From Achromobacter ruhlandii (GTDB lineage Bacteria; Pseudomonadota; Gammaproteobacteria; Burkholderiales; Burkholderiaceae_B): a DNA stretch of 64,000 nucleotides. The notes beneath the pieces were generated by a model. The model made no database searches and was not told the DNA's origin. It saw only the letters and a program-made list of their open reading frames with translations. The position numbers and the translations under genes were made by a program. Below, in pieces: positions 16,705-57,009 of this stretch; position 1 is the stretch's first letter; every line of letters starts with the position of its first letter. The stretch spans positions 1-64,000 of the forward strand of contig NZ_CADIJL010000024.1 of NCBI RefSeq assembly GCF_902859695.1. Direction: 5' to 3'.

Positions 16705-16720
16705 TTTTCACTGGTGAAAA
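16705..16720. promoter_or_regulatory. Palindromic operator copy 1
   Basis: TTTTCACTGGTGAAAA, a near-perfect 16-bp dyad found nine times in this window. This copy lies between the trb promoter and the first gene of the trb operon. Confidence 0.7.
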
Positions 16721-16757
16721 TCTTGCAAGGCGCGAATCTTCCTCTTCCGACACAGAT

Positions 16758-17108
16758 ATGACCATTTCCGTTGAACAATTCATTGAGCAAACGCCCGCGA
16801 AACGCGGGCGACGCCGTTCGTCGAAGGTGTGGATGCACATGGAGGAGGTCACGGAACTAAAGCAGCGCGGCTACTCCTATTACCAAATCAAAGACTTCCT
16901 CGCCAAGAATGGCGTCGAGGTGAAAAGGTCGACATTAATTTCCTTCGTCCGCCGGGCCGAACAGCGCGCGCAGCGAGAGGCGGAAGAAAAGGCAAGGTCG
17001 GGGACAGCGGTGGGAATTGCCACGGAAAGCGCTATCCCGGAGGCCAAGCCCGTTTCCAAGGCCTTGCCCCAGCAGGGCAAACGTGGCCCCACGCGGCGAC
17101 AATCATGA
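16758..17108 (+). CDS. Small helix-turn-helix-like protein at the head of the trb operon
   Basis: A 116-residue basic protein. Residues about 25-65 (KVWMHMEEVTELKQRGYSYY... to TLISFVRRAEQR) look like a resolvase-like or MerR-like helix-turn-helix in which a residue run of type GYSYYQIKDFLAKNGVEV leads to a recognition helix. The C-terminal third is Lys/Ala/Pro-rich and probably disordered. It overlaps trbB by ATGA, so the two are translationally coupled. It could be a regulator of the trb operon or an accessory DNA-binding protein. No specific family was recognised. Confidence 0.6.
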   Translation: MTISVEQFIEQTPAKRGRRRSSKVWMHMEEVTELKQRGYSYYQIKDFLAKNGVEVKRSTLISFVRRAEQRAQREAEEKARSGTAVGIATESAIPEAKPVSKALPQQGKRGPTRRQS

Positions 17109-18139
17109 ATGCCCCACTTAATGCAAGCGTCGCCGATGCGCTAGCTCTTGATGAAGGCTTGTCGCCAGAAGAACGCGCGAAGCGCGAGCGATTGCTCGAA
17201 TCGGTCAAGCGCAATCTCGGCAGTGAGGTACTTGCCGCTCTGCGCGACCCCATGGTGTTCGAAGTCATGCTCACGGTGAACGGCACTGTCCTTACAGATT
17301 CCGTGAATCACGGCTTGAAGATGCTCTGCCATGGTGGAGTTCCCGTGCGTATCCACGCAACGGCCGCCCGCAACATGATGTGGACTGTGGCGCAGCTCCT
17401 CGACACAACAGTCAGCGCCGAGAAGCCAATCTTGGAAGGCGAATTTCCGCTGGGAGGAGAGCGGTTCGAGGGGCTGCTACCGCCAGTCGTTGAGCGCCCA
17501 ATTTTCGCCATGCGCAAGCTCGCGGAGAAGATTTTTACCCTAGAGCACTATGTGCGCCAAGGAATCATCACCGTGGCGCAAATGGAAGTAATTCTTGATG
17601 CGGTTCGCCAGCGCAAGAACATACTGGTGGTGGGGGGCACCGCATCGGGCAAGACCACATTGGTCAATGCCATTCTGCAAGCCATGGCCGCACACACTCC
17701 CGAACATCGCATCATCATCATCGAGGACACTCGCGAGCTGCAGTGCAAGGCGCCATTTGTCGAGTTCCTCAGAACGTCGCGCCACACCTCGATTCAGGAT
17801 CTGTTGCGAGCCACCATGCGGCTTCGGCCGGACCGAATCATGGTCGGCGAAGTGCGAGGCGCCGAGGCGTTGTACCTTTTGAAGGCATGGAACACAGGAC
17901 ACCCAGGCGGGATGGGGACTATCCACGCAGATGGCGCGCTGGACGGCCTATACCGCCTGGATGAGCTAATCCAGGAAGCAGGTGTTCCGTCGAAGCTCTC
18001 GCTGATCGGGCGCGCGGTCGACATTGTGCTGTACCTGGAGAAAGACCCGACTACGCCGGGCCGGCGCGTATTGAAGGAGGTACTAGCTGTCGATGGATAT
18101 GACAGCCGCAACAACCAATTCATCGTAAAACCGCTCTGA
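17105..18139 (+). CDS. trbB: TrbB conjugal transfer ATPase (VirB11 family)
   Basis: A 344-residue hexameric traffic ATPase of the VirB11/TrbB family. The Walker A motif GGTASGKTTLVNA is near residue 177. It is followed by an Asp box (IIEDTRELQC), a Walker B region LRPDRIMVGEVRG and a His box (TIHADG). In conjugation it works at the cytoplasmic face with TrbE and TraG to assemble the pilus and move DNA. The start is the ATG at 17105 that overlaps the preceding stop. Reading back in frame to 16829 would run through most of the upstream gene in another frame and is rejected. Confidence 0.9.
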   Translation: MNAPLNASVADALALDEGLSPEERAKRERLLESVKRNLGSEVLAALRDPMVFEVMLTVNGTVLTDSVNHGLKMLCHGGVPVRIHATAARNMMWTVAQLLDTTVSAEKPILEGEFPLGGERFEGLLPPVVERPIFAMRKLAEKIFTLEHYVRQGIITVAQMEVILDAVRQRKNILVVGGTASGKTTLVNAILQAMAAHTPEHRIIIIEDTRELQCKAPFVEFLRTSRHTSIQDLLRATMRLRPDRIMVGEVRGAEALYLLKAWNTGHPGGMGTIHADGALDGLYRLDELIQEAGVPSKLSLIGRAVDIVLYLEKDPTTPGRRVLKEVLAVDGYDSRNNQFIVKPL

Positions 18140-18151
18140 TATGGAGTGCCC

Positions 18152-18319
18152 ATGCAAGATTTGATTTGTCATGCCAATGACTTTACCAACCTTCACCAGG
18201 CGCTTGCTGGTGGGGCATTGATCGCGGTGATCGTCACCGTGTGCTTTCTGAAAAACCTGGCCCGCATGCGAGCCCGCATCCACCGCTGGCGATCAGCCCC
18301 CGCCGCGGTCCGCGTCTAA
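18152..18319 (+). CDS. Small single-span membrane protein
   Basis: A 55-codon gene between trbB and trbC. The ATG at 18152 has a GGAG ribosome-binding site six bases upstream. The product has one hydrophobic segment (ALIAVIVTVCFLKNLA), flanked on the C-terminal side by a strongly basic tail (RMRARIHRWR), which predicts the C-terminus inside. It is cotranscribed with the trb genes and may be a small subunit or pilin-assembly helper. It resembles no family that could be named. Confidence 0.6.
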   Translation: MQDLICHANDFTNLHQALAGGALIAVIVTVCFLKNLARMRARIHRWRSAPAAVRV

Positions 18320-18371
18320 ATGGCGCAAACGTTTCCCCTTATTTTCAATATTTATTGAAGGATTTACGACC

Positions 18372-18695
18372 ATGCATAGCGATATCGTACTTGCGAAGAA
18401 GCAGGGAGGGTCCCGATTCCTGACGCTCCTCATCATGTGCGTGTACGCGGGCGCCGCGCAAGCGCAGTCTCTTCCCTGGGAAGGACCACTCTGCACGTTC
18501 GCCAACGCTCTTACGGGCAAAACTGCATTCGCCCTCGCAGTCATCGTCTTCTTCGCGACCTCCGTCGCGCTCCTGTGGGGTGAAGAAATCAAGGGCGTCA
18601 TGAAAGCCCTGGTCGTCGTCTTCATGCTCATCTCCGTCCTCATCGGCGGGTCTGCGATCATCCGCTGGCTCTGGCCTTCGGTAATTCCCTGCTGA
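18372..18695 (+). CDS. trbC: TrbC/VirB2-like conjugative pilin
   Basis: A 107-residue pilin precursor. A signal segment (FLTLLIMCVYAGAAQA) probably ends at AQA before QSLPWEGPLC, followed by two hydrophobic helices (residues about 55-70 and 77-97) separated by a short loop, as in VirB2/TrbC pilins. The mature product would be the subunit of the mating pilus. The stop overlaps the trbD start as TGATG. Cyclisation, known for RP4 TrbC, cannot be judged from sequence. Confidence 0.8.
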   Translation: MHSDIVLAKKQGGSRFLTLLIMCVYAGAAQAQSLPWEGPLCTFANALTGKTAFALAVIVFFATSVALLWGEEIKGVMKALVVVFMLISVLIGGSAIIRWLWPSVIPC

Positions 18696-19030
18696 TGGCT
18701 AGCGAAAGCGAAGACCTGCTGCCGCTTAGGCCGATTTACACCAGCCTCGCGCGACGCATCATGGTCAAAGGAGGAGAACGAGAACTGGTCTACATCGTGA
18801 TTCTGCTGGGCATCATGGTGGGCTTCGTGGACTCGGTTGGCTTTGGTCCGTTTGTGGGTGTGCCATTGGGGGCCGCCGTCGGTCTCGGTGGGTTGTGGGT
18901 CGCCCGTAGGATGGGCAAGGCTGATCCTTTCATGACCCTGGTGGCACGTCGCGCACTTACTTATCGCCGCAGCTATTCCGCGCGCGGCAGAGCCTCGGCG
19001 AAAGTGCCCAAAGCAAAGAGTTATCGCTGA
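18695..19030 (+). CDS. trbD: TrbD/VirB3-like membrane protein
   Basis: A 111-residue inner-membrane protein. After a short N-terminus with LRPIYTSLARRIMVKGGERE it has two adjacent hydrophobic segments (VYIVILLGIMVGFV and a Gly-rich second one), then a basic tail. The motif around RPxxxxGxxRxxxxxG-E and the position between the pilin and the large ATPase are typical for VirB3/TrbD. It is thought to dock the VirB4-type ATPase at the membrane. It overlaps trbC by one base. Confidence 0.8.
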   Translation: MASESEDLLPLRPIYTSLARRIMVKGGERELVYIVILLGIMVGFVDSVGFGPFVGVPLGAAVGLGGLWVARRMGKADPFMTLVARRALTYRRSYSARGRASAKVPKAKSYR

Positions 19031-21669: not shown

Positions 21670-21685
21670 TTTTCACTAGTGAAAA
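21670..21685. promoter_or_regulatory. Palindromic operator copy 2
   Basis: TTTTCACTAGTGAAAA, a perfect 16-bp palindrome, in the AT-rich gap between trbE and the next gene. It implies a second regulated promoter inside the trb cluster. A -10-like CATAAT lies at 21700-21705 but no good -35 at standard spacing was found. Confidence 0.7.
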
Positions 21686-21739: not shown

Positions 21740-22483
21740 ATGTCCTTGTTCTACATGTTCCTGGTGGGTTGCTTCATCGCACCCAAATTGACCATCGGTC
21801 TTCTTCAAACCGCAGTCAATCTGACCGTTGCGGTGGTGCATTCGCTGAGAATCTCCGTATTGCTCGTCGTACTCGCCTATCGACGCTGGGGCGCACGGCG
21901 CACCCTCGGAGCGGGAGTGGCGCTTATCGCCACAACCGCTATGGGGGTCTTGTTCATGCAACCAGCCCACGCCGCGGAAATCAAGTGCATTGGTGAAGCG
22001 CCATACTTGGTGGAAAACTATCGTCTTCCTACTCAAGGGCAGCCTGGAGCGGTATTCGTCGGTGCGCACGATCCCGGCGAGCGAATTGCCTACTTCTTGA
22101 CCGGCAGTGGTTGGGAGCGCTACGACGGCGGTCTGTTCCCGATTTATCGTCGCTTTGACGGGGGCTTGCCTGCCGAGGTGCCCGTGCAGACGCTGCTCCC
22201 GTTAGCCAGCGACAATACCGCTCCTGTCGAAAACTGGTCGATCTACATCGGCTATGGCATTCTCACGCCGGCCGCTATGGACATGATCAAAACGCGACGA
22301 GAGGCCCTGAACGAACTACGGCCCCAACGAGTAGCCGAGGGAACTTGGAACCCGAGTTACGATAGCGATGACCAGTTCAAATGGGCGCTGGTTCACAAGA
22401 ACTTGGTGGACAACAGCCAGTACCTGAAGGCCATCCCCCAGATACCGCTGATGTTTTGCCGACAAGACAATGGCAATAATTAG
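21740..22483 (+). CDS. Conserved-looking membrane protein in the trb cluster
   Basis: A 247-residue protein of no recognised family. The first 80 residues contain two or three hydrophobic segments (MSLFYMFLVGCFIAPKL, SLRISVLLVVLAYRRW and GVALIATTAMGVLFM), the last ending in AHA like a signal-peptidase site. A periplasmic domain follows with motifs YDGGLFPIYRRFDGGLP and WSIYIGYGILT. It starts a new transcription unit behind operator 2 and is followed closely by two small genes and trbL. A role in the mating channel, or in entry exclusion, is inferred only from its place. Confidence 0.6.
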   Translation: MSLFYMFLVGCFIAPKLTIGLLQTAVNLTVAVVHSLRISVLLVVLAYRRWGARRTLGAGVALIATTAMGVLFMQPAHAAEIKCIGEAPYLVENYRLPTQGQPGAVFVGAHDPGERIAYFLTGSGWERYDGGLFPIYRRFDGGLPAEVPVQTLLPLASDNTAPVENWSIYIGYGILTPAAMDMIKTRREALNELRPQRVAEGTWNPSYDSDDQFKWALVHKNLVDNSQYLKAIPQIPLMFCRQDNGNN

Positions 22484-25324: not shown

Positions 25325-25364
25325 GCAAAGTGCAATTTAATTTGCAATATTAGTTGCACTTTGC
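25325..25364. repeat. Inverted repeat between trbJ and trbF
   Basis: Perfect 11-bp arms GCAAAGTGCAA (25325-25335) and TTGCACTTTGC (25354-25364) enclose an 18-bp AT-rich spacer. There is no T-run, so it is more likely a regulatory dyad than a terminator. The predicted trbF promoter runs through it. Confidence 0.6.
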
Positions 25365-25371: not shown

Positions 25372-25403
25372 GAATACGTTCGGCATTTTTGCATTAATTA
25401 TTG

Positions 25404-25419
25404 CTTTCACTGGTGAAAA
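25404..25419. promoter_or_regulatory. Palindromic operator copy 3, at the trbF ribosome-binding site
   Basis: CTTTCACTGGTGAAAA, one mismatch from consensus. It ends three bases before the trbF ATG, and its GGTGAAAA half is also the only candidate ribosome-binding site. Confidence 0.65.
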
Positions 25420-28577: not shown

Positions 28578-28928
28578 ATGGACAAGACAATCACGCGCCT
28601 CCGTTCGCAGATCAAGAAGCTGCAATCGCAGCTCGACCGTGCACTGGTGAAACACCGCGCGATCGAAGTTCAACGGATTGTGCAGGTCATGCGCGGGCAT
28701 TCGTTGACACCCGACGATATCCGGCAGGCCCTGGAGTCGGCTCCGAAGGCGAGACGCGCGCAAAAGATGCCGCGCGCCGACGATGCACGCAGGCGCGCGC
28801 CGGTTGCGCCGAAGTATCGCGATCAGGCCACCGGCGACACCTGGACGGGAAGGGGTAAGCCACCGCGCTGGTTGAGTGCAGCCGAGCGTGCCGGCACATC
28901 ACGCGAGGCATTCCTCATCGCTCCTTGA
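28578..28928 (+). CDS. H-NS-family nucleoid protein
   Basis: A 116-residue H-NS-like protein. The N-terminal third is a coiled-coil oligomerisation helix (TITRLRSQIKKLQSQLDRAL). A linker rich in Arg/Ala follows, then the C-terminal DNA-binding motif KYRDQATGDTWTGRGKPPRW that defines the family. Plasmid-borne H-NS proteins silence AT-rich plasmid genes and reduce the fitness cost in a new host. It lies after trbI, separated by a hairpin (GCGCCAC / GTGGCGC, 28520-28538), and is probably transcribed on its own or by read-through. Confidence 0.9.
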   Translation: MDKTITRLRSQIKKLQSQLDRALVKHRAIEVQRIVQVMRGHSLTPDDIRQALESAPKARRAQKMPRADDARRRAPVAPKYRDQATGDTWTGRGKPPRWLSAAERAGTSREAFLIAP

Positions 28929-29755: not shown

Positions 29756-29783
29756 AAGCCTCGCACATGCGAGGCTTTTTTTT
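29756..29783 (+). terminator. Intrinsic terminator before the parAB region
   Basis: Stem AAGCCTCGCA / TGCGAGGCTT with a two-base loop is followed by a tract of eight T. The T-tract runs directly into operator 4. Confidence 0.9.
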
Positions 29784-29795
29784 CACCGGTGAAAA
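29780..29795. promoter_or_regulatory. Palindromic operator copy 4
   Basis: TTTTCACCGGTGAAAA, a perfect 16-bp palindrome. It overlaps the T-tract of the preceding terminator and ends 6 bp before the predicted -35 of the par operon. Confidence 0.7.
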
Positions 29796-29801: not shown

Positions 29802-29830
29802 TTGCATTATTTTATGCAATGCTCTAACAT
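29802..29830 (+). promoter_or_regulatory. Predicted promoter of the par operon
   Basis: TTGCAT (29802-29807) and TAACAT (29825-29830) are spaced by 17 bp. The -35 is part of an inverted repeat TTGCAT-n6-ATGCAA. Confidence 0.5.
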
Positions 29831-29860: not shown

Positions 29861-30067
29861 ATGGCTAGGAGCAAGACCCCGGGTGAAACAGAAGCACTCA
29901 CCCTCCGCTTGAACGGTGACCTAATCGTGGCATATCGCTCGCTCGCCGCGCAAACCACACTCCAGCAGGGCAGTGGTAGTACGGTAACGGCTCAGGATCT
30001 AATGCGCGACTGGTTGGGACGCAACCCGGCGCTGAAGTTGCTGGCGGGTAAGGCGGAAACAAAATAG
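29861..30067 (+). CDS. Small DNA-binding protein, ribbon-helix-helix-like
   Basis: A 68-residue protein with the strand ALTLRLNGDLIVAYRSLA followed by a helix-turn-helix pair ending in TAQDLMRDWLGRNP, the size and pattern of small ribbon-helix-helix regulators. It is the first gene behind operator 4 and lies 71 bp before parA. In partition operons such a protein often represses the par promoter or helps bind the centromere. Assignment to the fold is tentative. Confidence 0.55.
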   Translation: MARSKTPGETEALTLRLNGDLIVAYRSLAAQTTLQQGSGSTVTAQDLMRDWLGRNPALKLLAGKAETK

Positions 30068-30138: not shown

Positions 30139-30891
30139 ATGTTTATTTACACGTTCATCAATCGCAAGGGCGGGGTCGGGAAGACTGCTACTGCCTTCAA
30201 CCTGGCGCGCTACACACAGGAACAAGGCCTGCGCACAGGCGTGATTGATCTTGATACGCAGGGCAGTCTCAGCCGCGCGCTGACCAACGAGTTCGACATA
30301 CAACACGACTATGTGGGCGGGGCCATGGAACTGCTGAAATCTGGCGGCACGGCGAAGCCCTCGCGGACAACCGCCAATGGAATCGAAGTGTGGCATGGCC
30401 ACGAGCAGTTGGAGGCCATCGACAGCGATTCGAAGGTCGAAGATCTTGCCTACTCCTCCAAGATGAAAGAGAAGCTGCGCGAACTACCGTACGACGTGCT
30501 GATCATCGACACGCCGCCGGCGATCGGCTTGCGGCATGTCGCACCGTTATATTGGTCGGATCGGGTAGTCATCCCTGTTGAACCCGATACCGAAGCAGTG
30601 ATCGGCCTCCAGAACGTCTACAAGACCTTGGAGTCGGTCAGGTTCGAGAATCCCGGGCTCGTTACGATGATCGCCATCAATAAGTTCAAGGCATCGTCAA
30701 AGTCGCATAAGACCATTTGCGCGGTCGTACAGCAAAGCTATGGCGACGAAGTGATCGCGGTGCTCAACGATCGCGTTGCGGTCGCCGACTGCCGCCAGGA
30801 GGACGTGCCCGTGCCTGTCTGGCGGTATCGGCGCGCGAACAAAGCTACCAAGGACCAATGGCTCGGCTTTGTCCGCGCCGTTGTTCAGTAA
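30139..30891 (+). CDS. parA: ParA-family partition ATPase (IncC-like)
   Basis: A 250-residue deviant-Walker ATPase. The motif INRKGGVGKTATAFNLA starts near residue 8, the Walker A' Asp lies in VIDLDTQGSLS, and the Walker B-like strand is DVLIIDTPPA. The short form without an N-terminal DNA-binding domain is typical for type Ib/IncC2-like ParA. The ATG at 30139 (AAGGA about 10 bases upstream) is preferred over a GTG at 30106. Together with parB downstream it segregates the plasmid along the nucleoid. Confidence 0.88.
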   Translation: MFIYTFINRKGGVGKTATAFNLARYTQEQGLRTGVIDLDTQGSLSRALTNEFDIQHDYVGGAMELLKSGGTAKPSRTTANGIEVWHGHEQLEAIDSDSKVEDLAYSSKMKEKLRELPYDVLIIDTPPAIGLRHVAPLYWSDRVVIPVEPDTEAVIGLQNVYKTLESVRFENPGLVTMIAINKFKASSKSHKTICAVVQQSYGDEVIAVLNDRVAVADCRQEDVPVPVWRYRRANKATKDQWLGFVRAVVQ

Positions 30892-30931: not shown

Positions 30932-32176
30932 ATGACGTCGTTGTCCACATTGCAAAAAATCGCAGCGAATGCGGAAAAGTCGAAGGCGTCGCAAGCCGTT
31001 TCCGGCGCCGGCGTGAGGGTCGTCCCGCTGCATCTCATCGACTTCGACTCGAGCCAGCCGCGGCAGGACTTTTACACGCCCGATGGCGTGATCGCGCCCG
31101 AGGTGCAGGAAAAGCTGCAGGAGCTTGCCTCGAGCATGAAGATCCACGGTCAGCAAGCCGAAGTGACACTGATCGAGCTCGACAATGGCAGGTTCAAGAT
31201 CGCGGTCGGAGAACGCCGTGTCCGAGCCGCCCATCTGCTCGAATGGAAAGAGATCCGGGCGAACATCCGCAACGACTTGAAGGGCGTAAGCCTGCGGCTG
31301 TATCGCCTGGCCGAAAACGTCGACCGTGCAGATCTGTCCGAACTGGACACGGCGCGCTACATCGCCGACATTGTGGCCGCGGGCGAAATGAAAAAGCATG
31401 AACTCGCTGCGCATTTCGGCAAGAAGCCTGCATGGGTCACTCGCTATCTGGCCTTCGCGGACGACGTTAACTACCAGAAGTGGGTGAAACCCGGCTACAT
31501 CCAGAAGGCCTGGATCCTCTACGCGGTCACCCAGCTGCCCGACGAGGTACAAGACCAGATCTACGCCATGTGCGCTGCGCGCGACTCCGGCGAGCTTACT
31601 TCGCAAGAACTGCGACGTTTCGAAGCCATGGTGAAGCGCGGGCTGCCCGTCACGCCGCCGGGCGACGGCGGTAGCACTGCTCCCGGCGCTACGTCGCAAT
31701 CGAACGTGCTTGACCCGGCCGCCGCCGCGCAGCGAATGATGATGAACGCCGACACTGCGGAGACCCCGGACGGCTACCGCCCTCCTGACGGCCTTTCGGC
31801 TGAAGGCTTGGAGCCGCACGACGGCAAGCTCAGGACGATGGATAACACTCCGGGTAACGGCATCAGCACCGCTCACCGTGAGGAACACGACTCGGCGCCG
31901 GCAGGGCAGACGTCAGGTGCGACGCATGCTCCTGGCAGCATCGTCACTTCGCAGCTCTCCGTCGGGCAGCTATCGGCCATTCTGGTGCAGCTCCAGAAAA
32001 AGAAGGCAAAGGCCAGCGGCACGCTTCAATCTTTGTCGGTCAGTTTCCGCTTGCCTGAGCTGGTAGTGCGTGAGGTTCTGAGCGCACTCGGTGAAGGCGA
32101 AGAAGTCGAAAGCTTGCCGCCGATGATGCTCGGGCTAAAACTGGCCGAGGCTGGACACAAGTTGGCCAGCAAATAG
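30932..32176 (+). CDS. parB: ParB/KorB-family partition and regulatory protein
   Basis: A 414-residue ParB-family protein. The N-terminal CTPase-type domain has VVPLHLIDFDSSQPR and GERRVRAAHLLEW. A helix-turn-helix follows (KKHELAAHFGKKPAWVTRYLAF), then a long Pro/Gly/Asp-rich linker and a C-terminal dimerisation part. The lay-out fits KorB of IncP plasmids, which both partitions and represses. A GAGGT ribbon-binding site for the ribosome lies seven bases before the ATG; the frame further upstream overlaps parA and is rejected. A strong terminator follows. No parS or O_B-like consensus was recognised nearby. Confidence 0.85.
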   Translation: MTSLSTLQKIAANAEKSKASQAVSGAGVRVVPLHLIDFDSSQPRQDFYTPDGVIAPEVQEKLQELASSMKIHGQQAEVTLIELDNGRFKIAVGERRVRAAHLLEWKEIRANIRNDLKGVSLRLYRLAENVDRADLSELDTARYIADIVAAGEMKKHELAAHFGKKPAWVTRYLAFADDVNYQKWVKPGYIQKAWILYAVTQLPDEVQDQIYAMCAARDSGELTSQELRRFEAMVKRGLPVTPPGDGGSTAPGATSQSNVLDPAAAAQRMMMNADTAETPDGYRPPDGLSAEGLEPHDGKLRTMDNTPGNGISTAHREEHDSAPAGQTSGATHAPGSIVTSQLSVGQLSAILVQLQKKKAKASGTLQSLSVSFRLPELVVREVLSALGEGEEVESLPPMMLGLKLAEAGHKLASK

Positions 32177-33873: not shown

Positions 33874-33899
33874 TCTGCAATATTTAATGTGATTTTATC

Positions 33900-34246: not shown

Positions 34247-34262
34247 TTTTCACCAGTGAAAA
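34247..34262. promoter_or_regulatory. Palindromic operator copy 5
   Basis: TTTTCACCAGTGAAAA lies 30 bp before the TrfB-KfrB gene, consistent with autoregulation. Confidence 0.7.
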
Positions 34263-34291: not shown

Positions 34292-34831
34292 ATGGGGATT
34301 GCTCCGGAGTTGTTCGAACGCTTGGCCCAGGAAAGGCCCCGACTTTCGGATAAGTCTCTCGCGGCCGCCCGCCTTGTAATGGTCGATGGGGTGCGGCCGG
34401 GCGATGCGGCCACCAGGGTCGGTGTCTTGCCCGCACAGGTCTCGCGGACCACTCGCGCACTATATGAAGCAGAAGCCGAGTTGCGTGAGACTGGCCAACT
34501 CGCCTCGATCAGCACTGACCTGGTAGAGCGAAATCTGGACGCGAGCTACACATTGGCAGTTTCGCAATTGCGCAACCAGATGGGCGACGAAGTCCTCGTC
34601 AGTACTGCTGAGGCCAACCGTACATATTCTGGCTCCGTAAAGGTCCGCACCGATCTGCACTTGGTGCAGGACGTTGGACGTGGCAAAGTCGTCGTCCACG
34701 AGTTGGCCAAGCTCGATCGCGTGCCGCAGCTGGGGCAATCGCTCGATATCGCCTATTCGAATGACTTGCGCCGCCCGGCCCATGTCTCGATACAAGGGTT
34801 AACCCAAAAGCGCGGGGGAATTTCCCGCTAA
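34292..34831 (+). CDS. TrfB(KorA)-like regulator fused to a KfrB-like domain
   Basis: A 179-residue protein. Residues about 5-62 contain LSDKSLAAARLVMVDGVRP followed by a helix-turn-helix (GDAATRVGVLPAQVSRTTRAL), which matches the TrfB/KorA DNA-binding domain of IncP plasmids. Residues about 112-170 (YSGSVKVRTDLHLVQDVGRGK and LDRVPQLGQSLDIAY) match the KfrB-type small beta domain. KorA coordinates replication, partition and transfer genes in IncP. This gene lies 30 bp after operator 5 and is the best candidate to bind the nine operators. Native KorA lacks the KfrB part, so the fusion is unusual. Confidence 0.7.
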   Translation: MGIAPELFERLAQERPRLSDKSLAAARLVMVDGVRPGDAATRVGVLPAQVSRTTRALYEAEAELRETGQLASISTDLVERNLDASYTLAVSQLRNQMGDEVLVSTAEANRTYSGSVKVRTDLHLVQDVGRGKVVVHELAKLDRVPQLGQSLDIAYSNDLRRPAHVSIQGLTQKRGGISR

Positions 34832-38542: not shown

Positions 38543-38558
38543 TTTTCACCAGTGAAAA
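38543..38558. promoter_or_regulatory. Palindromic operator copy 6
   Basis: TTTTCACCAGTGAAAA lies 15 bp before the ATG at 38573, so it covers the region between promoter and ribosome-binding site of the traC group. Confidence 0.7.
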
Positions 38559-41762: not shown

Positions 41763-41790
41763 TTAACAAAGTACAACCGTATGCTATAAA
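41763..41790 (+). promoter_or_regulatory. Predicted promoter of the ATPase operon with adjoining dyad
   Basis: TTAACA (41763-41768) and TATAAA (41785-41790) are spaced by 16 bp. Immediately downstream TTGCACT (41793-41799) and AGTGCAA (41813-41819) form an inverted repeat ending at the ATG of the next gene. The 16-bp operator is absent. Confidence 0.5.
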
Positions 41791-41820
41791 TATTGCACTA
41801 TTCAATTTACGGAGTGCAAA

Positions 41821-47094: not shown

Positions 47095-47112
47095 GAGTGA
47101 AATCACCCCCCT
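47095..47112 (-). repeat. Isolated iteron copy upstream of traG
   Basis: On the minus strand GGGGGGTGATTTCACTC matches the CTC-type origin iterons exactly. It is about 7 kb from the origin and lies in the traG promoter region. Confidence 0.65.
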
Positions 47113-47138: not shown

Positions 47139-47154
47139 CTTTCACTAGTGAAAA
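47139..47154. promoter_or_regulatory. Palindromic operator copy 7
   Basis: CTTTCACTAGTGAAAA, one mismatch from consensus. TTTCAC inside it and TAATAT (47162-47167) at 16-bp spacing could be a promoter for traG that the repressor would cover. Confidence 0.65.
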
Positions 47155-47244
47155 AAACGCCTAATATCACAATAAAATATGCTTTATGTATTTCACATGG
47201 CTACACTTGTGGTTTGCACTTGATTCTTGAATTTCACCGCGACT

Positions 47245-49377
47245 ATGGCAGATAAAAAACCCCGTTTGCAGACGTTTAAGGCAGCTCGCACGCCGCTGCA
47301 AAATGTCATGTTGGGCATTCTCGCGATGATGTTCATTGTCATGGTCGCCTCAGTGTTTGCCACGCAGTTCTTCGCGGCCAAGATGAACTACTCGCGCCAT
47401 TTAGGAGCGCCCCTTTTTTCATTGGGCGCATGGGCCGTCTATCTTCCGTTCGACTGGATAAGTTGGGGTTGGCGATTTGCTGACCTAGTCGCCGTAAAGC
47501 CCACTGTGTACCAAATGGCCGTCATCGCACTATCTGGCTCCGCAATGGGTTTGGTCACGGGGCTGCTAGTGACGTTCTTTGCGTTTAAGCGCACCGAGGG
47601 CATGGAGTCGCTACACGGCGATGCCCACTGGGCAACTGCGGAGGAGGTTGATAGGACTGGTTTGCTCGGCCATCCCGGCGCTGAACTGAAGGGCATCTGT
47701 GTCGGGTCGATCATGTTGGACAAAGAAGGGGAGACGGTAACTCCCGCGCACGCCGACTACAGATCGAGGCACGTGACCCGCAAGAATGGTGGTGTCGTAA
47801 TGCGGGATAGCGAGGGCCGTCCGCTCTATGACGTGAATCCCAGCGTAGTGCTGGCTTTGCAGTACCTGCGAGACAACGCACCTACCCATGTTCTAGTTTT
47901 TGCGCCGACGCGTTCTGGTAAAGGTCGAGGGTTGATCATTCCCACGTTGTTCGCATGGAACGCATCAGTTGTGGTTGCGGACCAAAAAGGCGAGAACTAC
48001 GCCCTTACGGCAGGAATGCGCAAACGAGCGGGGCAGCGTGTTGGAAAGTTCGCTCCCACCAGCAACGATGGCTCCACGTGGAAGTGGAATCCCCTGGATG
48101 AGATCCGTAAAGGCACCGACCGGGAGGTTGGGGATGCCATGAACATATGTCAGATGATCGTGGATCCCGAGAATAAGGGGATGGAAGACCACTTTATATC
48201 GACGGCGTGGATGCTGCTTACCGCCGTGGCGCTACACCACGTGTATGCCGAGTCCGACGCCTCTATCGGTGGAATGGTGATGTATCTGTCGGATCCGCGG
48301 TTCGAGACCGACACGCAGATGTGGCAGAGAATGCTAACTGCAGAGCATGACCCGACCTTGAAGATGGGATGGGTCGACACTGCCGGCGCACCCACGAAGA
48401 CTCACCCCTTGGTGGCAGCACAAGCGGCATCGATGATGAAAATCGCGGAGGAAGAACGGGGCTCCATCTTGTCGACCGCCCGCCGCGTGCTTGGCCTCTG
48501 GTACGACCCGCTAGTTGCCGCCAATACCCGGACAAGCGACTTCCTGTGTAGAGACCTGATGACGGCAGATGACCCCGTCAGCCTCTACTACATCCCTACT
48601 GAAGAAGACAAAGACCGGCTGTTGCCACTCTCAAGGCTCTTTTTCTCCATGATCATTCGGCGCAATACCGTCCCAATGGCGGCTGAGAACGGCCGCCTTG
48701 TTGGAGGGTACAAACACCGCTTGTTGATGTTGATCGACGAGTTTCCCGCGCTTGGACAGCTCGAGATTATTGAAGATGCGCTGTCTTACGTCGCAGGGTA
48801 TGGGATCAAGCTGATGCTGATCTGCCAAGATCTGAGACAGCTTCAAGATAAGTATGGCGACAACGAGACCATTGTGGCGGGATGCCATATTCGCATTGCC
48901 TATGGCCCCTCGGACGAGCGGACAGCGCAACGACTGGAAGACATGGTGGGCGAGACTACGGTTGCGGAAGAAGAAGAAAACGTATCAGCGAATCGAATGG
49001 GTATTTCGGGTGGCAACGTGTCCGTCTCCCGTAAAAAAACAGGACGGCCGCTGATGACTGTAGGCGAATGGATGACGCTGTCGAATGAAGATCTGGTGGT
49101 GCTGGTGGCAAACAATCCGCCAATTTATGGACGAAAGATCAAATACGACGAAGTCCCCGATTTTGCTGCCTGGTCAAAACTGCCAGCACCGCATTCGAAT
49201 ACACCTCTTCGGGAACGCTTAGCTCGGACAGCGCCAGCGGCAACTCCAGCTACTGTCGCCATGTCAGAGGCAATGGCCGGCGGTCCTGCGCTTACCGCTG
49301 CTGACCAACGAATTGTCGACCAGTTATTGGCGAATCACATTGCTGTCCAAGAGATCCAACAAGTGAGGGCGTTCTGA
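47245..49377 (+). CDS. traG: TraG/VirD4 coupling protein
   Basis: A 710-residue type IV coupling protein. Two N-terminal membrane segments (about residues 12-40 and 80-105) are followed by Walker A (VFAPTRSGKGRG, near residue 220) and Walker B (LLMLIDEFPALG, near 495). The RP4 TraG-like C-terminal part ends in QEIQQVRAF. It links the relaxosome to the Trb channel and pumps DNA. The ATG at 47245 is preferred to TTG at 47227. The stop overlaps the next start (TGATG). It lies behind operator 7 and an iteron copy. Confidence 0.9.
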   Translation: MADKKPRLQTFKAARTPLQNVMLGILAMMFIVMVASVFATQFFAAKMNYSRHLGAPLFSLGAWAVYLPFDWISWGWRFADLVAVKPTVYQMAVIALSGSAMGLVTGLLVTFFAFKRTEGMESLHGDAHWATAEEVDRTGLLGHPGAELKGICVGSIMLDKEGETVTPAHADYRSRHVTRKNGGVVMRDSEGRPLYDVNPSVVLALQYLRDNAPTHVLVFAPTRSGKGRGLIIPTLFAWNASVVVADQKGENYALTAGMRKRAGQRVGKFAPTSNDGSTWKWNPLDEIRKGTDREVGDAMNICQMIVDPENKGMEDHFISTAWMLLTAVALHHVYAESDASIGGMVMYLSDPRFETDTQMWQRMLTAEHDPTLKMGWVDTAGAPTKTHPLVAAQAASMMKIAEEERGSILSTARRVLGLWYDPLVAANTRTSDFLCRDLMTADDPVSLYYIPTEEDKDRLLPLSRLFFSMIIRRNTVPMAAENGRLVGGYKHRLLMLIDEFPALGQLEIIEDALSYVAGYGIKLMLICQDLRQLQDKYGDNETIVAGCHIRIAYGPSDERTAQRLEDMVGETTVAEEEENVSANRMGISGGNVSVSRKKTGRPLMTVGEWMTLSNEDLVVLVANNPPIYGRKIKYDEVPDFAAWSKLPAPHSNTPLRERLARTAPAATPATVAMSEAMAGGPALTAADQRIVDQLLANHIAVQEIQQVRAF

Positions 49378-50096
49378 TGATTTTTACCAGTGAAAATTTT
49401 TTCGCAAGGCTTACATTATTTATTGCCATTGCGGCGATTAGCGCCCGGGCGATAGCAGCATCCGAAATGCCTATGGCGGAACTACTAGCCAAATGTGCGC
49501 CTACCGTCGCCGTGAGCACGATGGCGTCCATTGTGAAAGTCGAGTCGTCCGGTCACGTGTACGCGGTGGCAGACGCAGGGCCTGTGCACCTTCCTTGGAG
49601 CGTTCGCAAAGACATGGTGCGCTCTCATTTTCCGACATCGAAAGATGAGGCTGTTGAACTGGTCAAGTCGTTGCTGAAGAAAGGGCACACCGTCAGCATC
49701 GGCCTGTCGCAAGTGAACGATCGCAATCTCAAAGGCTTGGGATTAAGCGTGGAAGAGGTCTTTGATCCCTGCACGAACGTGTCTGCCGGCGGCAAGATCC
49801 TCACCAACTTCTATCAACGGGCGGCCAAAGAATTTGGCCCCGGCGAGAAGGCGCTGCAAGCGGCCATCTCGGCATATCAATCCGGCAACTGGGAACGCGG
49901 CGTAGCCAACGGCTACGTCGGCCTCGTCTACAAGGCCGCCGGGGTTGTGCCGGACCTAAAAGTGGGAACGGGAAACCGCGCGATGAAGGTGGCTAGCGCT
50001 GATAGGCCGACTAAGTCGGCCGAGCAATGGTGGGAGTCCCGCGCGGAACTACTGCGCCAAGCGCGAGAGTCGGACCTCAAGGCCTCAAAGGAATAA
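49377..50096 (+). CDS. VirB1-like lytic transglycosylase
   Basis: A 239-residue exported lytic transglycosylase. A signal peptide ends near ARAIAA. The SLT domain follows with the catalytic Glu near residue 53 in IVKVESSG, then GLSQVNDRNLKGLGLS and SAYQSGNW. It locally opens peptidoglycan so that the mating channel can pass. The first codons (MIFTSENFF) are the near-operator palindrome (operator 8). It is coupled to traG. Confidence 0.85.
   Translation: MIFTSENFFARLTLFIAIAAISARAIAASEMPMAELLAKCAPTVAVSTMASIVKVESSGHVYAVADAGPVHLPWSVRKDMVRSHFPTSKDEAVELVKSLLKKGHTVSIGLSQVNDRNLKGLGLSVEEVFDPCTNVSAGGKILTNFYQRAAKEFGPGEKALQAAISAYQSGNWERGVANGYVGLVYKAAGVVPDLKVGTGNRAMKVASADRPTKSAEQWWESRAELLRQARESDLKASKE
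49381..49396. promoter_or_regulatory. Operator-like copy 8 inside a coding start
   Basis: TTTTTACCAGTGAAAA, one mismatch from consensus, begins four bases after the A of the virB1-like ATG. It codes for residues 2-7 of that protein, so selection for the site and for the protein overlap. Confidence 0.5.
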
Positions 50097-50126: not shown

Positions 50127-52202
50127 ATGAAGCGGAAAATCTCAGTACTTGTGGTCGATTCGAATCAGGCTGAACTGGGCACCTTGACGGCTGCGCTAGG
50201 TAGCTGGGGCTTCGAAGTGCAGGCCTGCAGCTGCCTTGACGCGGGTGTAGACGCATTCGTTGCGCACAAGCACGACATTGTGCTGTTGAGCTATGGTCTA
50301 TCGGCGCTCTCGACCGAAAGTGTGTTGGCGTGCTTGCGCTCGTCCGTGGCGCCGCGGTGGACGCCCATCGTCTTCATCATGGACGACATCGAGCTGGATG
50401 AAGCCCATGATCTTGCTGAGTACGACGGCGCCGACCTCGTCGTTCGACCAATTGCTTTGCCGCTGCTCAAAGCCAAGATGAAGTCGCTGTCTCGTCTGAT
50501 GGATGAAAACCGTTCAGACCCTGCAGAACAGTTCCGTGCAGTGCTGGAAGGCTCTACGGACGCAGTCGCAGTGGTCAACCAGGCGGGCCACCTCGTTGAG
50601 TTCAATTCGCCCGCAGCGCAACTGTTCGGCTGGGAACGAAACGAGGTGCTCGGCTGGCATATCCGCGATTTCATGCCAGCGCAAATCGTGGAGGTTCATG
50701 GCGACGTCTTCAAGGATGACAAGGTCGCGGCGCTTTGGAACTCGAGGCGGCTAAAGGTGAGAGGGAAAGACAGCCGGGAAATGGTGATGGAGATCCGCTT
50801 TGGCTTCATCAACCTGCCGACGCGTCGTCTTTGTTCGATCACCATGCGTGACGTCTCGGACCGGGAACGCGAAGAAGATGAAATGCTGAGGGCCTCTCTA
50901 TATGACGGCCTGACCGGCTTGCCAAACCGGAACCAGTTCCAGGAGCGCCTTTCCCAGCTGATTGCGATATCCAATCGCTACAGCAAGCTTTTGGGCGTGC
51001 TGTTCATCGACCTGGACAAGTTCAAGGAAATCAACGACACACACGGCCATGATGTTGGCGATCGGGTTCTGATGGAGATTGCCCGCCGCTTGCAGGGCAG
51101 CATTCGTGACTCCGACACGATCGCTCGCCTTGGCGGCGACGAATTCGTCGCACTCCTTTACGATCTGCGAAGCTCGGAAGACGCCAGGCTCGTCGCCGAG
51201 CGCTTTATCTCAGCGTGCGAAAGGCCCGTGATCGTCAACGATCGCAGCCTGGAGTTGTCCGCCAGCATCGGTATTGCTATCTATCCGGACGGCGCCAAGG
51301 ACAAAGAAGTCCTCCTGCGGCAGGCAGACGATGCGATGTACCACGCCAAGCGCGCCGGAGGCTGCCGCTACTCATTCTTCAGTCACGAGATCAACAAAGC
51401 GGTACAACAGCGACAAGAGTTGGAGCAAGGCCTGGAGTTGGCCTTGCGCCGCAATCATTTCTTTCTCGTGTACCAGCCGCAAGTCGACCTGCGTACTAGC
51501 CAGATCGAGGGCGCTGAAGCACTGATCCGTTGGGAGAAAGACGGCAGCGTAGTTCCACCGAACCTGTTCGTCCCGATCGCAGAAGAATCTGGTCTTATCG
51601 TTGAAATCGGTCAATGGGTATTGCGTGAGGCGTGCCGGGAAGCAAAAAGTTGGTACGACACGGGCTTGCGAGGTCCCAATGGTCACGGACTGGCAATCGG
51701 CGTGAATCTATCAGTACGCCAGTTCAACTTGCGGCTGCCAGGCGTAGTCTTCGACATACTGCATGAGACGGGTCTACCCCCGCATCTGCTAAATCTTGAG
51801 ATCACCGAGAGCTTCCTGGTCCAGGACGTCGACCAGGCACGCGTCATCCTAGACAAGCTGGTCTCCGCCGGCGTCCAGCTCTCCGTCGATGACTTCGGTA
51901 CGGGGTATTCCTGCCTGGCCTACCTCAAGGAATTGCCTGTGACAACCATCAAGGTCGACAAGAAGTTCGTGGACCGAATCCACACCGGCGGCAAGGATCT
52001 GAAGATGGCTTCCGGCATTGTGACTCTGGCCAAATCGCTGGAAATGAAGACGCTCGCCGAAGGGGTGGAAAAGGCGGAGCAGGTCCAAGCACTCATTGAC
52101 CTCGAATGCGACTCGTGTCAGGGATACTACTTCTCCAGACCCATCCGAGCAGCAGAATTCCGAAAGATGCTCGTCGAATCTTCGCTCCCGGTGATCGCCT
52201 GA
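50127..52202 (+). CDS. REC-PAS-GGDEF-EAL protein (cyclic-di-GMP turnover)
   Basis: A 691-residue cytoplasmic signalling protein. The N-terminal receiver-like domain (ISVLVVDSNQAELGTL) has DIVLLSYG where the phospho-acceptor Asp is normally found, so a Ser replaces it. A PAS domain follows (about residues 130-250), then GGDEF with intact RLGGDEF near 334, and EAL with intact GAEALIRW near 462 and downstream EITES and VDDFGTGYS motifs. Both catalytic domains look complete, so it could make or break c-di-GMP. It lies 30 bp after the virB1-like gene. Regulating pili or mating from the plasmid is an inference. Confidence 0.82.
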   Translation: MKRKISVLVVDSNQAELGTLTAALGSWGFEVQACSCLDAGVDAFVAHKHDIVLLSYGLSALSTESVLACLRSSVAPRWTPIVFIMDDIELDEAHDLAEYDGADLVVRPIALPLLKAKMKSLSRLMDENRSDPAEQFRAVLEGSTDAVAVVNQAGHLVEFNSPAAQLFGWERNEVLGWHIRDFMPAQIVEVHGDVFKDDKVAALWNSRRLKVRGKDSREMVMEIRFGFINLPTRRLCSITMRDVSDREREEDEMLRASLYDGLTGLPNRNQFQERLSQLIAISNRYSKLLGVLFIDLDKFKEINDTHGHDVGDRVLMEIARRLQGSIRDSDTIARLGGDEFVALLYDLRSSEDARLVAERFISACERPVIVNDRSLELSASIGIAIYPDGAKDKEVLLRQADDAMYHAKRAGGCRYSFFSHEINKAVQQRQELEQGLELALRRNHFFLVYQPQVDLRTSQIEGAEALIRWEKDGSVVPPNLFVPIAEESGLIVEIGQWVLREACREAKSWYDTGLRGPNGHGLAIGVNLSVRQFNLRLPGVVFDILHETGLPPHLLNLEITESFLVQDVDQARVILDKLVSAGVQLSVDDFGTGYSCLAYLKELPVTTIKVDKKFVDRIHTGGKDLKMASGIVTLAKSLEMKTLAEGVEKAEQVQALIDLECDSCQGYYFSRPIRAAEFRKMLVESSLPVIA

Positions 52203-53186: not shown

Positions 53187-53205
53187 CGAGGACTGGGGAG
53201 GGTTC

Positions 53206-54081: not shown

Positions 54082-55374
54082 CTACGCCCGAAGACGCCGG
54101 GGCGCGATCGGCGGGGGTGATGCATCGAACTGCAGGCCGCCGCGGATCTTCTTAATCTTCGCCGCGGGGTAGGCCTGCATCACGTCCTTGAGCGCCAAGA
54201 GGAAAGTCTTCTTGAAATTCTTGTCAGCATCCGGTCCTTGGTATTCGTGACCGAACTGCTCGCGCAACTTCGACCATCGCATGAACAGGCCATCGGTGGT
54301 GTCAATACGATGCAGCCGGTGCGCCATCCAGGTGTAGATGTCGAGCTTCAAGCTACTTCCCTTGAGCAGCAACATGGCCCGGTTATCAAGTGGGACCGCG
54401 CTTTCGATCAAAGACTTGTAATAGGTCTCAGAGAGGCGCAATACTCCAGGCCACAAAGGCCGCTGGTTGGAATCCCGGTTGTTGATCCAAGCGTCGAATT
54501 GCTCGACAGGCTGGCCGTTGTAGGTACGACCGTTTACCCCTAGCTGGATTCGGCATGCGGCCAACGCATGCATTTGCGTGCGCAGTGTCCGGTAGCGCCT
54601 GCCCTCACGCTCCATCCCCATGTTGGCCAAAAATTCCGCCGCACTCGAACCGATAGGGACCTCGCGATCTCGGTTCATCACGGCATAAGACGAAATCCAG
54701 ACAAGAGCCAAGCGGGGAATAGGGCCATACGGAATCGGCTGGGGGACGGGACCTGACCCTTCGTCGATCATCCCGGCCTGAACGTTAATCCAGTTGGGCC
54801 CGGATTTGCGCATGAACTCTTTGCCATCGAAACGTGAGTGCGGCAGCGCGACCTGGCAGAAGATGGCGTGGGTGAACGCAAAATCCTCGCTAGAGGGAAG
54901 GTTCTCACGGATCTGATGGCCGATATCGAGCACGCGCGAAGTCTGTTTTGTCTGCAATAACGGGTAGTCGACCTGGCCGGTCGACTGGATGTATTCGACT
55001 GGCGTATCCTTTCGCTCCTTCGACTTCGGCGCGGCTCTAGCCGGCAGCTGTGTTGCACTTGCCAGAACTGAGGGATCACCGAACGCGTACCAGCGCGAGA
55101 TCGTTTTGCCCACCTTTTGAGGTGTGGCCAAGCACGCATGAAATGCCTGCGCCTGGTGGTGAGCTACGTCTTCTGCGATGCCTGCTTTGACCAGGTTGAC
55201 TTCAAACTCTTCAGCGCTTTTCGATTGCGAAAACGCCATGTCAACAACCCGGGCTTGAACAGCTGCGCGCTTCGCGGGAAAACCCAAGAGCTGCAGTTGT
55301 TCATTGTAGGCTTCAACATCAAAGCGAATCTTGTGGCTCTGGTCTACCAATTCGAGGGGGGCCTGCCGGTTCAT
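54082..55374 (-). CDS. repA: Plasmid replication initiator RepA
   Basis: A 430-residue initiator of the plasmid RepA_C family. The conserved part near residues 190-290 contains IPRLALVWISSYAVMNRDRE, then an SAAEFLANMGM and RRYRTLRTQMHALAACRIQL region, followed by LRLSETYYKSLIESAVPLD and AMLLLKGSSLKLDIYTWMAH. Such proteins bind iterons and open the origin. The ATG at 55374 has AGGAG about 8 bases upstream; reading back to 55524 would add 50 residues overlapping the upstream gene. It is downstream of a small gene on the same strand and faces away from the iterons. Confidence 0.85.
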   Translation of the reverse strand: MNRQAPLELVDQSHKIRFDVEAYNEQLQLLGFPAKRAAVQARVVDMAFSQSKSAEEFEVNLVKAGIAEDVAHHQAQAFHACLATPQKVGKTISRWYAFGDPSVLASATQLPARAAPKSKERKDTPVEYIQSTGQVDYPLLQTKQTSRVLDIGHQIRENLPSSEDFAFTHAIFCQVALPHSRFDGKEFMRKSGPNWINVQAGMIDEGSGPVPQPIPYGPIPRLALVWISSYAVMNRDREVPIGSSAAEFLANMGMEREGRRYRTLRTQMHALAACRIQLGVNGRTYNGQPVEQFDAWINNRDSNQRPLWPGVLRLSETYYKSLIESAVPLDNRAMLLLKGSSLKLDIYTWMAHRLHRIDTTDGLFMRWSKLREQFGHEYQGPDADKNFKKTFLLALKDVMQAYPAAKIKKIRGGLQFDASPPPIAPRRLRA

Positions 55375-55387
55375 GTGTGCTCCTCGG

Positions 55388-55732
55388 TTACGCAGCGCGC
55401 TTGTGGGCTGCTGCGGCCTCGTGCGTAGCGCGCAGTGCGGCAGCACGGCCAGGATTGCCGCGCTCGTGCTTGCGCTCAGTGGGGTGCCAATCGCTGATAT
55501 CGACGTCGACAGCCGTGATGCCAATCCGCCGCAATGCGGTCAAGGCGGCATCAGTGCTCGAAAAGCGTCGCGGCTTGTCATTGCTCCGGAGAGTAACGAG
55601 AAAGCCTCGAGCTTTCTCTTGCTGCAATTGGATATTGACGACGAAGGCGCCGCCTTGCCCCGCAAGTTGCACTGTGCGAACGCCGCCGTTCGTGTGGAGA
55701 AGCTTCAATTGGTCGAGCGTTAACGGTTGCAT
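55388..55732 (-). CDS. ParC-like partition/replication-associated small protein
   Basis: A 114-residue protein starting MQPLTLDQLKLLHTNGGVRT, with FLVTLRSNDKPRRFSSTDAA and an Ala/Arg/His-rich tail. It resembles the small proteins named ParC that occur next to replication genes on broad-host-range plasmids. The ATG at 55732 is chosen; the frame extends to 55807. It is cotranscribed with repA (13-bp gap). The family link is from memory of this pattern only. Confidence 0.5.
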   Translation of the reverse strand: MQPLTLDQLKLLHTNGGVRTVQLAGQGGAFVVNIQLQQEKARGFLVTLRSNDKPRRFSSTDAALTALRRIGITAVDVDISDWHPTERKHERGNPGRAAALRATHEAAAAHKRAA

Positions 55733-56034
55733 CGAGGGCTCTCGAGGTATTGAACGTTGACCAGTATGCAGATGACCGGGCTTTTGCGCAAGCAAATGAT
55801 AAGACATGCGGCAACGAATGCGTGGAGTTGCTTGGGCGAAGACTAGAAGCGAATGAAACGGCCGCTGAGCGATTTGAACTAGCAGCAGTACCTACCCCCG
55901 CAGGACACTGACGTTATGCGCTCTGAGGCCCTGTGCGAGCTCTTGGAGCGCCATGCGTTTGGTGGAAGGCCTTACTGTTGGTTACTTGGGTTGGGACATT
56001 GTGTTTTGGGATCGGGTTGAAGCAAAGGTGCTTG
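55733..56034. other. Leader region of the repA operon
   Basis: No gene could be supported; the plus-strand frame beginning at 55953 runs into G/C-run hairpins and lacks a ribosome-binding site. The repA operon promoter should lie here, but no clear -35/-10 pair was found. Confidence 0.35.
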
Positions 56035-56270
56035 CCTGGGCGTCCGGGGGACGCCCAGGTCTGCCGGTAGGAGCCGGCCCGGAGGGCTTGGCGCCGCTTA
56101 AGCGGTGCCAACTCCGTATCCCGGCAGACAGTTTGCTGATGAAAGGTGGTGGTGTGAAGGGGGTTGGGGGCCCGTTCACCCCCCTTAGGGGGGCTCGATT
56201 TTCTTGTGGGGGGCTTCGATTCGGCCCCCCCTCTGGGGGGCTCTAGTTATGGGTGTCGGCGCGAAGCGCC
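56035..56270. other. Highly structured non-coding stretch beside the origin
   Basis: Several perfect stems stack here: CCTGGGCGTCC/GGACGCCCAGG (56035-56059), TCTGCCGG/CCGGCAGA (56060-56128) enclosing a second dyad GGCgCCGCTT/AAGCGGtGCC (56090-56109), and runs of CCCCCC/GGGGGG hairpins (56179-56240). It could be a single-strand origin, a structured RNA or a replication-control element. Confidence 0.55.
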
Positions 56271-56363
56271 GGGATAAGTTGGCAAGTTGTCCCCAGGTAC
56301 TGGGGGCTCATACAGGGAGTAGTAGAGGAAAAACTAAAGGAAAAATACAGGATATATATGAGA

Positions 56364-56957
56364 GGGGGTGATTTCACGCAAAAAAGGGGGCAGATATCAC
56401 GCGCTAAAAGTGGGCGATTTCACTCATCAAGGGGGGGTGATTTCACGTGGATAACTTTTGGAAAATGCAGACTTATCCACTTATCCACAACCGGTTGAGG
56501 CTCTCTGCCCAATAGGGGGTGATTTCACGCACGCAACTCCAAAAATAGGCCGTCAACTAGGGGGGGTGATTTCACGCACGGAGCTAGCTGCAACCCACGC
56601 CCCTGAAGGGGGGAGATTTCACGCATAGATTGCGCGCGCAAATGCGGGATCAAATAGCTGTCGAGAGATCATAAGGTATCAATTTTAAAGGCTTTTTATT
56701 GATAGTGGGCACTAACTAGCCATCATGACAAGAGGACGAAAGGGGGGTGATTTCACTCGGAAACCGGGCAAGATCCGTGGACAGAAAAAGGGGGGGTGAT
56801 TTCACTCCAACCATGTCGATCATGCTGAATCTCATTGCGGGAGACAGGCCTGCTGGTGATCGGCGCCATCGCATCGAGAGACTCTTTGTCCAAAGGGGGG
56901 TGATTTCACTCACATGGCTCAACCGATGCTCGCCAGAAGAGGGGGGTGATTTCACTC
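56364..56957 (+). repeat. Origin iterons
   Basis: Good copies of GGGGGTGATTTCAC start near 56364, 56432, 56515, 56561, 56608 (GAG variant), 56742, 56791, 56895 and 56941; two degenerate copies lie at about 56386 and 56410. The left group mostly continues with CGC and the right group with CTC, so there are two subtypes. Confidence 0.88.
56447..56489. promoter_or_regulatory. Three DnaA boxes in oriV
   Basis: GTGGATAA (56447-56454) is a reverse box; TTATCCAC (56473-56480) and TTATCCACA (56481-56489) are tandem forward boxes. The last is the strict DnaA consensus. Confidence 0.75.
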
Positions 56958-56993
56958 AGCGACCTTTACCTTCAAGCAATATCTCTTGTAAAA

Positions 56994-57009
56994 TTTTCAC
57001 TAGTGAAAA
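56994..57009. promoter_or_regulatory. Palindromic operator copy 9
   Basis: TTTTCACTAGTGAAAA, perfect palindrome, directly after a -10-like TAAAAT (56989-56994) and 42 bp before the next gene. Confidence 0.7.

Follow-up and report, generated by a model that had tools for sequence, protein, structure and literature searches.

The window analysed here is a stretch of 64,000 nucleotides from Achromobacter ruhlandii that forms part of contig C24 (NZ_CADIJL010000024.1) of a 6.86-Mb genome in 86 contigs. C24 is 96,929 bases long and its two ends are identical over 111 bases, and it therefore closes as a circle of 96,818 bp, i.e. a plasmid of about 97 kb. A Pfam scan that took in 30 proteins of the 89 gene calls recovered a trb-type secretion system and an adjacent TcpQ protein, along with ParA, a KorB-domain ParB, the fusion protein TrfB-KfrB, a protein of the ArdC-N/DUF5710 kind, a coupling protein of the traG type, a lytic transglycosylase (SLT) and a RepA_C gene, next to which lies an array of eight copies of the iteron GTGAAATCACCCC (56365-56943). 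Non-coding DNA makes up about 19% of the replicon by our gene calls. We describe two inverted repeats dispersed over this plasmid, motif 1 (M1) and M2, and the proteins that may read them.

M1 is the palindrome TTTTCACYRGTGAAAA, which a preliminary description of the window had reported at nine positions as the operator of a plasmid-wide regulon. All nine coordinates proved exact (six perfect copies, three with one mismatch); no tenth match occurs in the window at up to three mismatches, a threshold at which 0.38 sites are expected by chance, and none of 100 shuffles attained nine. A scan of the full replicon, which that description had proposed, brings the number to 12 at up to one mismatch by adding sites at 81555, 87886 and 95522. 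At the same threshold M1 is absent from the remaining contigs of the genome, which hold two 2-mismatch matches; the exact pattern is also absent from 42 other genomes of the genus. Fresh gene calls place all 12 sites between genes. The earlier description had put all but one of its sites in leader DNA; the exception, 49381, would extend into the first codons were translation to start from the ATG at 49377. When dinucleotides were shuffled segment by segment in the intergenic DNA, no M1 site arose in 100 rounds. At the parA operon M1 stops 6 bp short of a -35-like TTGCAT box at 29802, and the open reading frame (ORF) at 21740, which has no Pfam match, occupies the position of trbJ by synteny. 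Stray single iterons were seen at 47097 and 54034 in the window and at 83191 of C24; one of the three precedes the M1 site in the traG leader by 29 bp.

Related plasmids were sought with TrfB-KfrB as a tblastn query against 72,556 plasmid records, 12 of which matched. Seven were compared with their flanks, and Cupriavidus metallidurans Ni-2 was added via a ParB search; left out were two B. vietnamiensis records close in length to pBVB_1, and three records, two from Mesorhizobium and one from Nitrosomonas, in which only the KfrB part matched. Within the fetched stretches a common gene order was found in pl3WSM5005, pMsip01, pRK1-3, pBVB_1, B. multivorans NML180963, pACP4.3 and Ni-2, and a different one in the Nitrosomonas record compared with flanks. 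A scan of genome contigs yielded five more loci, two of them on one contig, two viral-contig scans yielded no TrfB-KfrB relatives, and a 9.1-kb megablast query had no match in the plasmid collection.

When perfect palindromes of 14-15 bases were used as seeds with two mismatches allowed, one dispersed palindrome ranked first in each of seven replicons, with 12 copies in this plasmid, 19 in pl3WSM5005, 14 in pMsip01, 15 in pACP4.3, 13 in pRK1-3, 18 in pBVB_1 and 17 in NML180963; when cores of 12 bases with a single mismatch were used instead, the same palindrome ranked first in 3 of 7. Ni-2 has six copies in 40.6 kb. These palindromes fall into four mutually exclusive versions of M1, namely TTTTCACYRGTGAAAA (this plasmid), TTCYRACGTYRGAA, TTCCTAYRTAGGAA and CTTTTGCWGCAAAAG, and a cross-scan of 11 sequences found 0 or 1 matches to any version outside its own class; the version of this plasmid has one 2-mismatch match in the six other whole replicons. 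Four further genomes contain the Burkholderiaceae version in 2, 6, 15 and 28 perfect copies, all except one on the contig bearing the trfB locus. The copies on the contig richest in them are partly duplicates, because the trfB locus is present there twice, and a reversed control pattern had one match in that genome. Of 66 perfect M1 copies in pl3WSM5005, pRK1-3, pBVB_1 and NML180963, 51 are asymmetric (TTC-CA-ACGT-CA-GAA or its complement).

The trbB and parA-operon leaders carry M1 in 7 of 7 plasmids where these leaders are visible, and the trbJ, trbF/trbG, trfB, DUF5710, traG and SLT leaders carry it in several. In a conservative test over the four classes with a self-chosen list of 15 genes, shared leaders gave weak results, with p values of 0.08-0.45 for pairs of classes and 0.05 for the match of trbB and parA in all four, and conservation of the M1 layout is therefore not statistically proven. 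Promoter scoring around 115 M1 sites found no constant promoter offset, and promoter-like sites were hardly more numerous near M1 (79) than in shuffled flanks (71).

M2, which the preliminary description had missed, is a second dispersed inverted repeat located at leaders; k-mer enrichment around M1 sites was noisy, yet pointed to it. It reads TGCAWTA-NN-TWWTGCA in this plasmid and pMsip01, and TGATAT-N4-ATATCA in the Burkholderiaceae relatives. In a search for spaced inverted repeats, TGCAATA-NN-TATTGCA reached a log10 p of -9.3 in this plasmid and -5.8 in pMsip01, and TGATAT-N4-ATATCA reached -15.8 in pl3WSM5005 and -8.5 in NML180963; since unrelated repeat families scored -5 to -9, the value for pMsip01 proves little alone, and TGATAT was not listed among the top five inverted repeats of pBVB_1 and pRK1-3. 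We relied instead on a cross-class scan, on shuffles of intergenic segments and on block shuffles of whole replicons. Segment-wise shuffling gave an expectation of 0.7 copies against 15 observed in this plasmid, and of about 0.2 against 7, 9 and 5 in 40-kb stretches of pl3WSM5005, pBVB_1 and NML180963, and the observed count was attained in 0 of 100 rounds. At up to one mismatch, block shuffles gave 0.12 against 6 observed in this plasmid, 0.32 against 4 in pMsip01, and at most 0.04 against 9, 2, 5 and 6 in four Burkholderiaceae plasmids. Because the patterns were drawn from the sequences themselves, the counts in pMsip01, pBVB_1 and pRK1-3 provide the more independent evidence. At the same threshold pACP4.3 has no M2 and the Ni-2 stretch one, and leader alignments of these two did not reveal a dispersed M2.

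The two motifs differ in placement. Of 22 M2 sites in three Burkholderiaceae plasmids, 21 lie between genes (including two mutually overlapping pairs) and one lies in a gene, whereas 12 of 28 M1 sites in the same plasmids lie within genes. M1 is paired with a promoter-proximal M2 at trbB, at parA and behind trbE in the three relatives examined.

Table 1. M1 and M2 sites and associated genes of the plasmid (positions on C24; position 1 is also the first base of the window)
Feature	Position	Strand	Basis
M1 site, tcpQ-like/trbB divergent leader	16705..16720	.	motif scan
M1 site, 54 bp before ORF 21740	21670..21685	.	motif scan
M1 site, immediately 5' of VirB8/trbF gene 25423	25404..25419	.	motif scan
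M1 site, leader of pre-parA ORF-parA-parB	29780..29795	.	motif scan
M1 site, 29 bp 5' of TrfB-KfrB gene	34247..34262	.	motif scan
M1 site, 287 bp 5' of ArdC-N/DUF5710 gene 38846	38543..38558	.	motif scan
M1 site, leader of traG-type coupling protein 47245	47139..47154	.	motif scan
M1 site, extreme start of SLT (virB1-like) ORF	49381..49396	.	motif scan
M1 site adjoining iteron array, 5' of ORF 57031	56994..57009	.	motif scan
M1 site between leftward-read gene and DNA methylase	81555	.	replicon scan
M1 site 5' of type II/IV secretion ATPase	87886	.	replicon scan
M1 site, start of leftward-read topoisomerase	95522	.	replicon scan
M2 site, trbF leader	25343..25358	.	repeat scan
M2 site, trbF leader; two-base overlap with M1 at 25404	25390..25405	.	
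M2 site, parA-operon leader, over -35-like TTGCAT	29803..29818	.	repeat scan
M2 site (2 mismatches), leader of gene preceding trfB	33876..33891	.	repeat scan
M2 site, leader of gene 41821	41782..41797	.	repeat scan
M2 site (2 mismatches), traG leader	47180..47195	.	repeat scan
M2 site (2 mismatches), SLT gene start region	49412..49427	.	repeat scan
116-aa pre-trbB ORF	16758..17108	+	HTH (helix-turn-helix)-like by eye; no Pfam match
68-aa pre-parA ORF	29861..30067	+	ribbon-helix-helix-like by eye only; no family match
ParA/IncC-like ATPase	30139..30891	+	Pfam
KorB-like ParB (ParB_N + KorB domain), proposed M1 reader	30932..32176	+	Pfam, alignment
TrfB-KfrB, KorA-type HTH fused to KfrB domain, proposed M2 reader	34292..34831	+	
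RepA_C gene adjoining iterons	54082-55374		Pfam

The preliminary description had also held that the motif differs from the KorA and KorB sites of IncP plasmids and looks like another specificity within the same logic. We take TTTAGCSGCTAAA and GTTTAGCTAAAC to be the consensus sequences of the KorB operator OB and the KorA operator OA; at up to one mismatch neither occurs in this plasmid, and among the seven replicons OB has a single one-mismatch match, in pMsip01, and OA none. Together with the four M1 versions in plasmids of related gene order and the presence of M1 in every visible trbB and parA leader, this supports the earlier view.

That description had left the binder open among the four ORFs at 16758, 29861, 30932 and 34292. 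Once M2 is taken into account, the ParB at 30932 best fits M1 and the TrfB-KfrB protein at 34292 fits M2, and ORFs 16758 and 29861 are unlikely as universal readers, because the (incomplete) annotation of some relatives lists no counterparts. The ParB matches PF08535 at 23.5 bits (cut-off 22.3) and ParB_N at 36.7 (cut-off 26.3). It carries GERRVR and ENVDR, predicted CTP (cytidine triphosphate) motifs of the forms GERRxR and ENxxR, which we take to be the CTP-binding motifs of ParB/KorB proteins; G, E, R, R and E, N, R are invariant in a 7-row alignment. Its structure model is poor except in the DNA-binding domain (mean predicted local distance difference test score 48.9). The M1 half-site TTTCAC is also the half-site of the host chromosomal parS, present on contig C3 in three perfect and four one-mismatch sites, a likeness spotted post hoc and suggestive. 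TrfB-KfrB has a KorA-type HTH, and Pfam assigns residues 111-157 to the KfrB domain; its model shows the HTH followed by a long helix and a beta domain. In pMsip01 a second, small KorA-like ORF was seen by eye directly before parA (about 14546-14791 of the fetched stretch, coordinates estimated by hand), with a helix resembling that of its own TrfB-KfrB and a one-mismatch M1 in its leader.

The pair of motifs recalls KorB and KorA of RK2 with their operators OB and OA (PMC11790492). As in RK2/RP4 (IncP-1), a ParB-family protein with a KorB domain adjoins ParA and is accompanied by a KorA-type HTH protein, the dispersed palindromes number about a dozen and are joined by a second, leader-located set, and the targets are trb, tra and par genes. 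Sites both near to and distant from presumed promoters, which would match RK2/RP4, are seen in three Burkholderiaceae relatives; here all 12 M1 sites are in leaders. Unlike RK2/RP4, this plasmid has a KfrB domain in place of the C-terminal dimerisation and KorB-contact domain of KorA, and four operator versions occur inside one plasmid family. IncP-1 plasmids have the replication protein TrfA; the 30 proteins scanned here include that of a RepA_C gene beside iterons.

We infer, with a probability of roughly 0.6, that M1 is the OB-like site of the KorB-like ParB and M2 the OA-like site of TrfB-KfrB. By analogy with RK2 KorB, ParB would load at the 12 M1 sites around the circle and reach nearby promoters as a CTP-dependent sliding clamp, M1 doubling as partition site and silencer site; TrfB-KfrB bound to promoter-near M2 would help to retain ParB and close the promoter. 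Transfer, partition, anti-restriction and replication-side genes would as a result be expressed at a low level that limits itself. A draft Candidatus Glomeribacter contig slightly favours ParB as the reader of M1, as it has lost the TrfB HTH, keeping only the KfrB tail (5952-6634 of the fetched stretch), and retains an open parB and two perfect M1 sites, although its parA is interrupted.

Several observations weigh against this assignment. M2 lies within 1.8 kb of only 5 of the 12 gene-internal M1 sites, pACP4.3 and Ni-2 lack a clear M2 despite Q50/R53 in their TrfB, and no dispersed palindrome was seen in the 33-41 kb examined of three plasmids that have a similar ParB but no TrfB match. The last of these also favours the alternative that M1 is the operator of TrfB-KfrB, acting as a classical KorA-type promoter-near repressor, and that M2 belongs to another protein or to promoter architecture. 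Such a role would suit the position of M1 29 bp before trfB-kfrB in this plasmid and the recognition helices of TrfB, which differ between classes but are constant (QRx[SNT]QI) among the Burkholderiaceae. This helix resembles that of R388 ArdK, a member of the KorA family that reads TTGACA and occupies direct repeats at five promoters (PMC9723621); TGAC occurs in TTCTGAC. M1 and M2, however, are both inverted repeats, and the protein here has a KfrB domain. Moreover, M1 often lies within genes in three relatives where M2 is at leaders, the TrfB helices of C24 and Ni-2 are nearly the same (PAQVSRTT/PAQISRAI) although their M1 differ, and M1 and parB persist in Glomeribacter after loss of the HTH. 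We regard this alternative as unlikely.

That another plasmid protein reads M1 is very improbable. The ORFs at 29861 and 16758 are small, possibly DNA-binding and each directly 3' of M1, and the latter has two weak transposase-model matches far under the cut-off. The annotation, in gene tables that are incomplete and with no homology search made, shows no such ORF between tcpQ and trbB in three Burkholderiaceae relatives, nor immediately 5' of parA in pACP4.3, and the pre-trbB ORF of pMsip01 seems by eye unrelated to ORF 16758. A purely dispersed parS of ParB with no part in gene control would agree with the shared TTTCAC half-site and the retained CTP motifs, but it is very improbable given the confinement of M1 to intergenic leaders here and its pairing with M2 in the three relatives.

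Taken together, M1 and M2 point to a dual control network of the OB/OA kind that uses new recognition sequences and exists in at least four versions within one plasmid family. It is possible, and we propose it only tentatively, that one conserved KorB-like and KorA-like network has been re-coded at least four times in this family, each lineage altering a dozen or more sites along with the reader, with the layout largely kept. Related plasmids would then form mutually blind 'immunity types' that escape one another's silencing and partition machinery, and re-coding would be the plasmid counterpart of phage stoperator evolution. Cluster A mycobacteriophages (PMC6550527) likewise have many dispersed stoperators per genome whose sequence varies together with the repressor among relatives; there, however, a phage immunity repressor acts on oriented 13-bp sites that halt elongation, whereas here plasmids carry (pseudo)palindromes with a ParB-type candidate reader.

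The family offers natural KorB-KorA variants with new site sequences, a similar layout and KfrB in place of the KorA C-terminus, in which it can be tested how a whole regulon switches its recognition sequence, whether incompatibility types are set apart by the switch and which features of the KorA-KorB mechanism hold more widely. To our knowledge, RK2 is almost the sole example studied in depth of a ParB-type clamp that silences at long range. Neither six operator sequences (three from this plasmid, one for each other version) nor the name pMsip01 occurs in 5.39 million open-access full texts, a collection that leaves most subscription journals uncovered. Among the matches listed for six other plasmid or strain names are two papers that, by title and opening of the abstract, announce genomes of host strains, and 'TrfB-related DNA-binding protein' occurs there in a single paper, which concerns other plasmids.

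Other repeats were noted in the same sequences. A third inverted repeat, AGTAAATAG-N6-CTATTTACT, lies 5' of the pre-trfB gene in Burkholderiaceae, once per sequence at up to four mismatches in 6 of 7 sequences (four whole plasmids, three fragments), over a -35-like box and 36-51 bp from M1. GTACCCA-N-TGGGTAC recurs in pBVB_1 (log10 p -8.8; 5464, 8626, 12097, 12154) and NML180963 (-8.0; 54111, 56212 and 59373, among others). The palindromes in seven parA leaders include no shared, separate parS-like motif, and TTGATCNGATCAA in pACP4.3 and CCCCANTGGGG in the parA leaders of pACP4.3 and Ni-2 were dropped as candidate repeats for too few copies.

Among the neighboring genes, a weak H-NS/StpA-like protein is encoded near parAB (28578-28928; scores under curated cut-offs), and a 2180-aa protein combining an Eco57I-type methylase and a helicase at 73962-80504 of C24; large helicase or methylase genes are present in several related plasmids. 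Directly 3' of the lytic transglycosylase gene lies a gene for a Receiver-PAS-GGDEF-EAL protein (50127-52202), a cyclic-di-GMP enzyme within the transfer region that may share the control of the transglycosylase gene.

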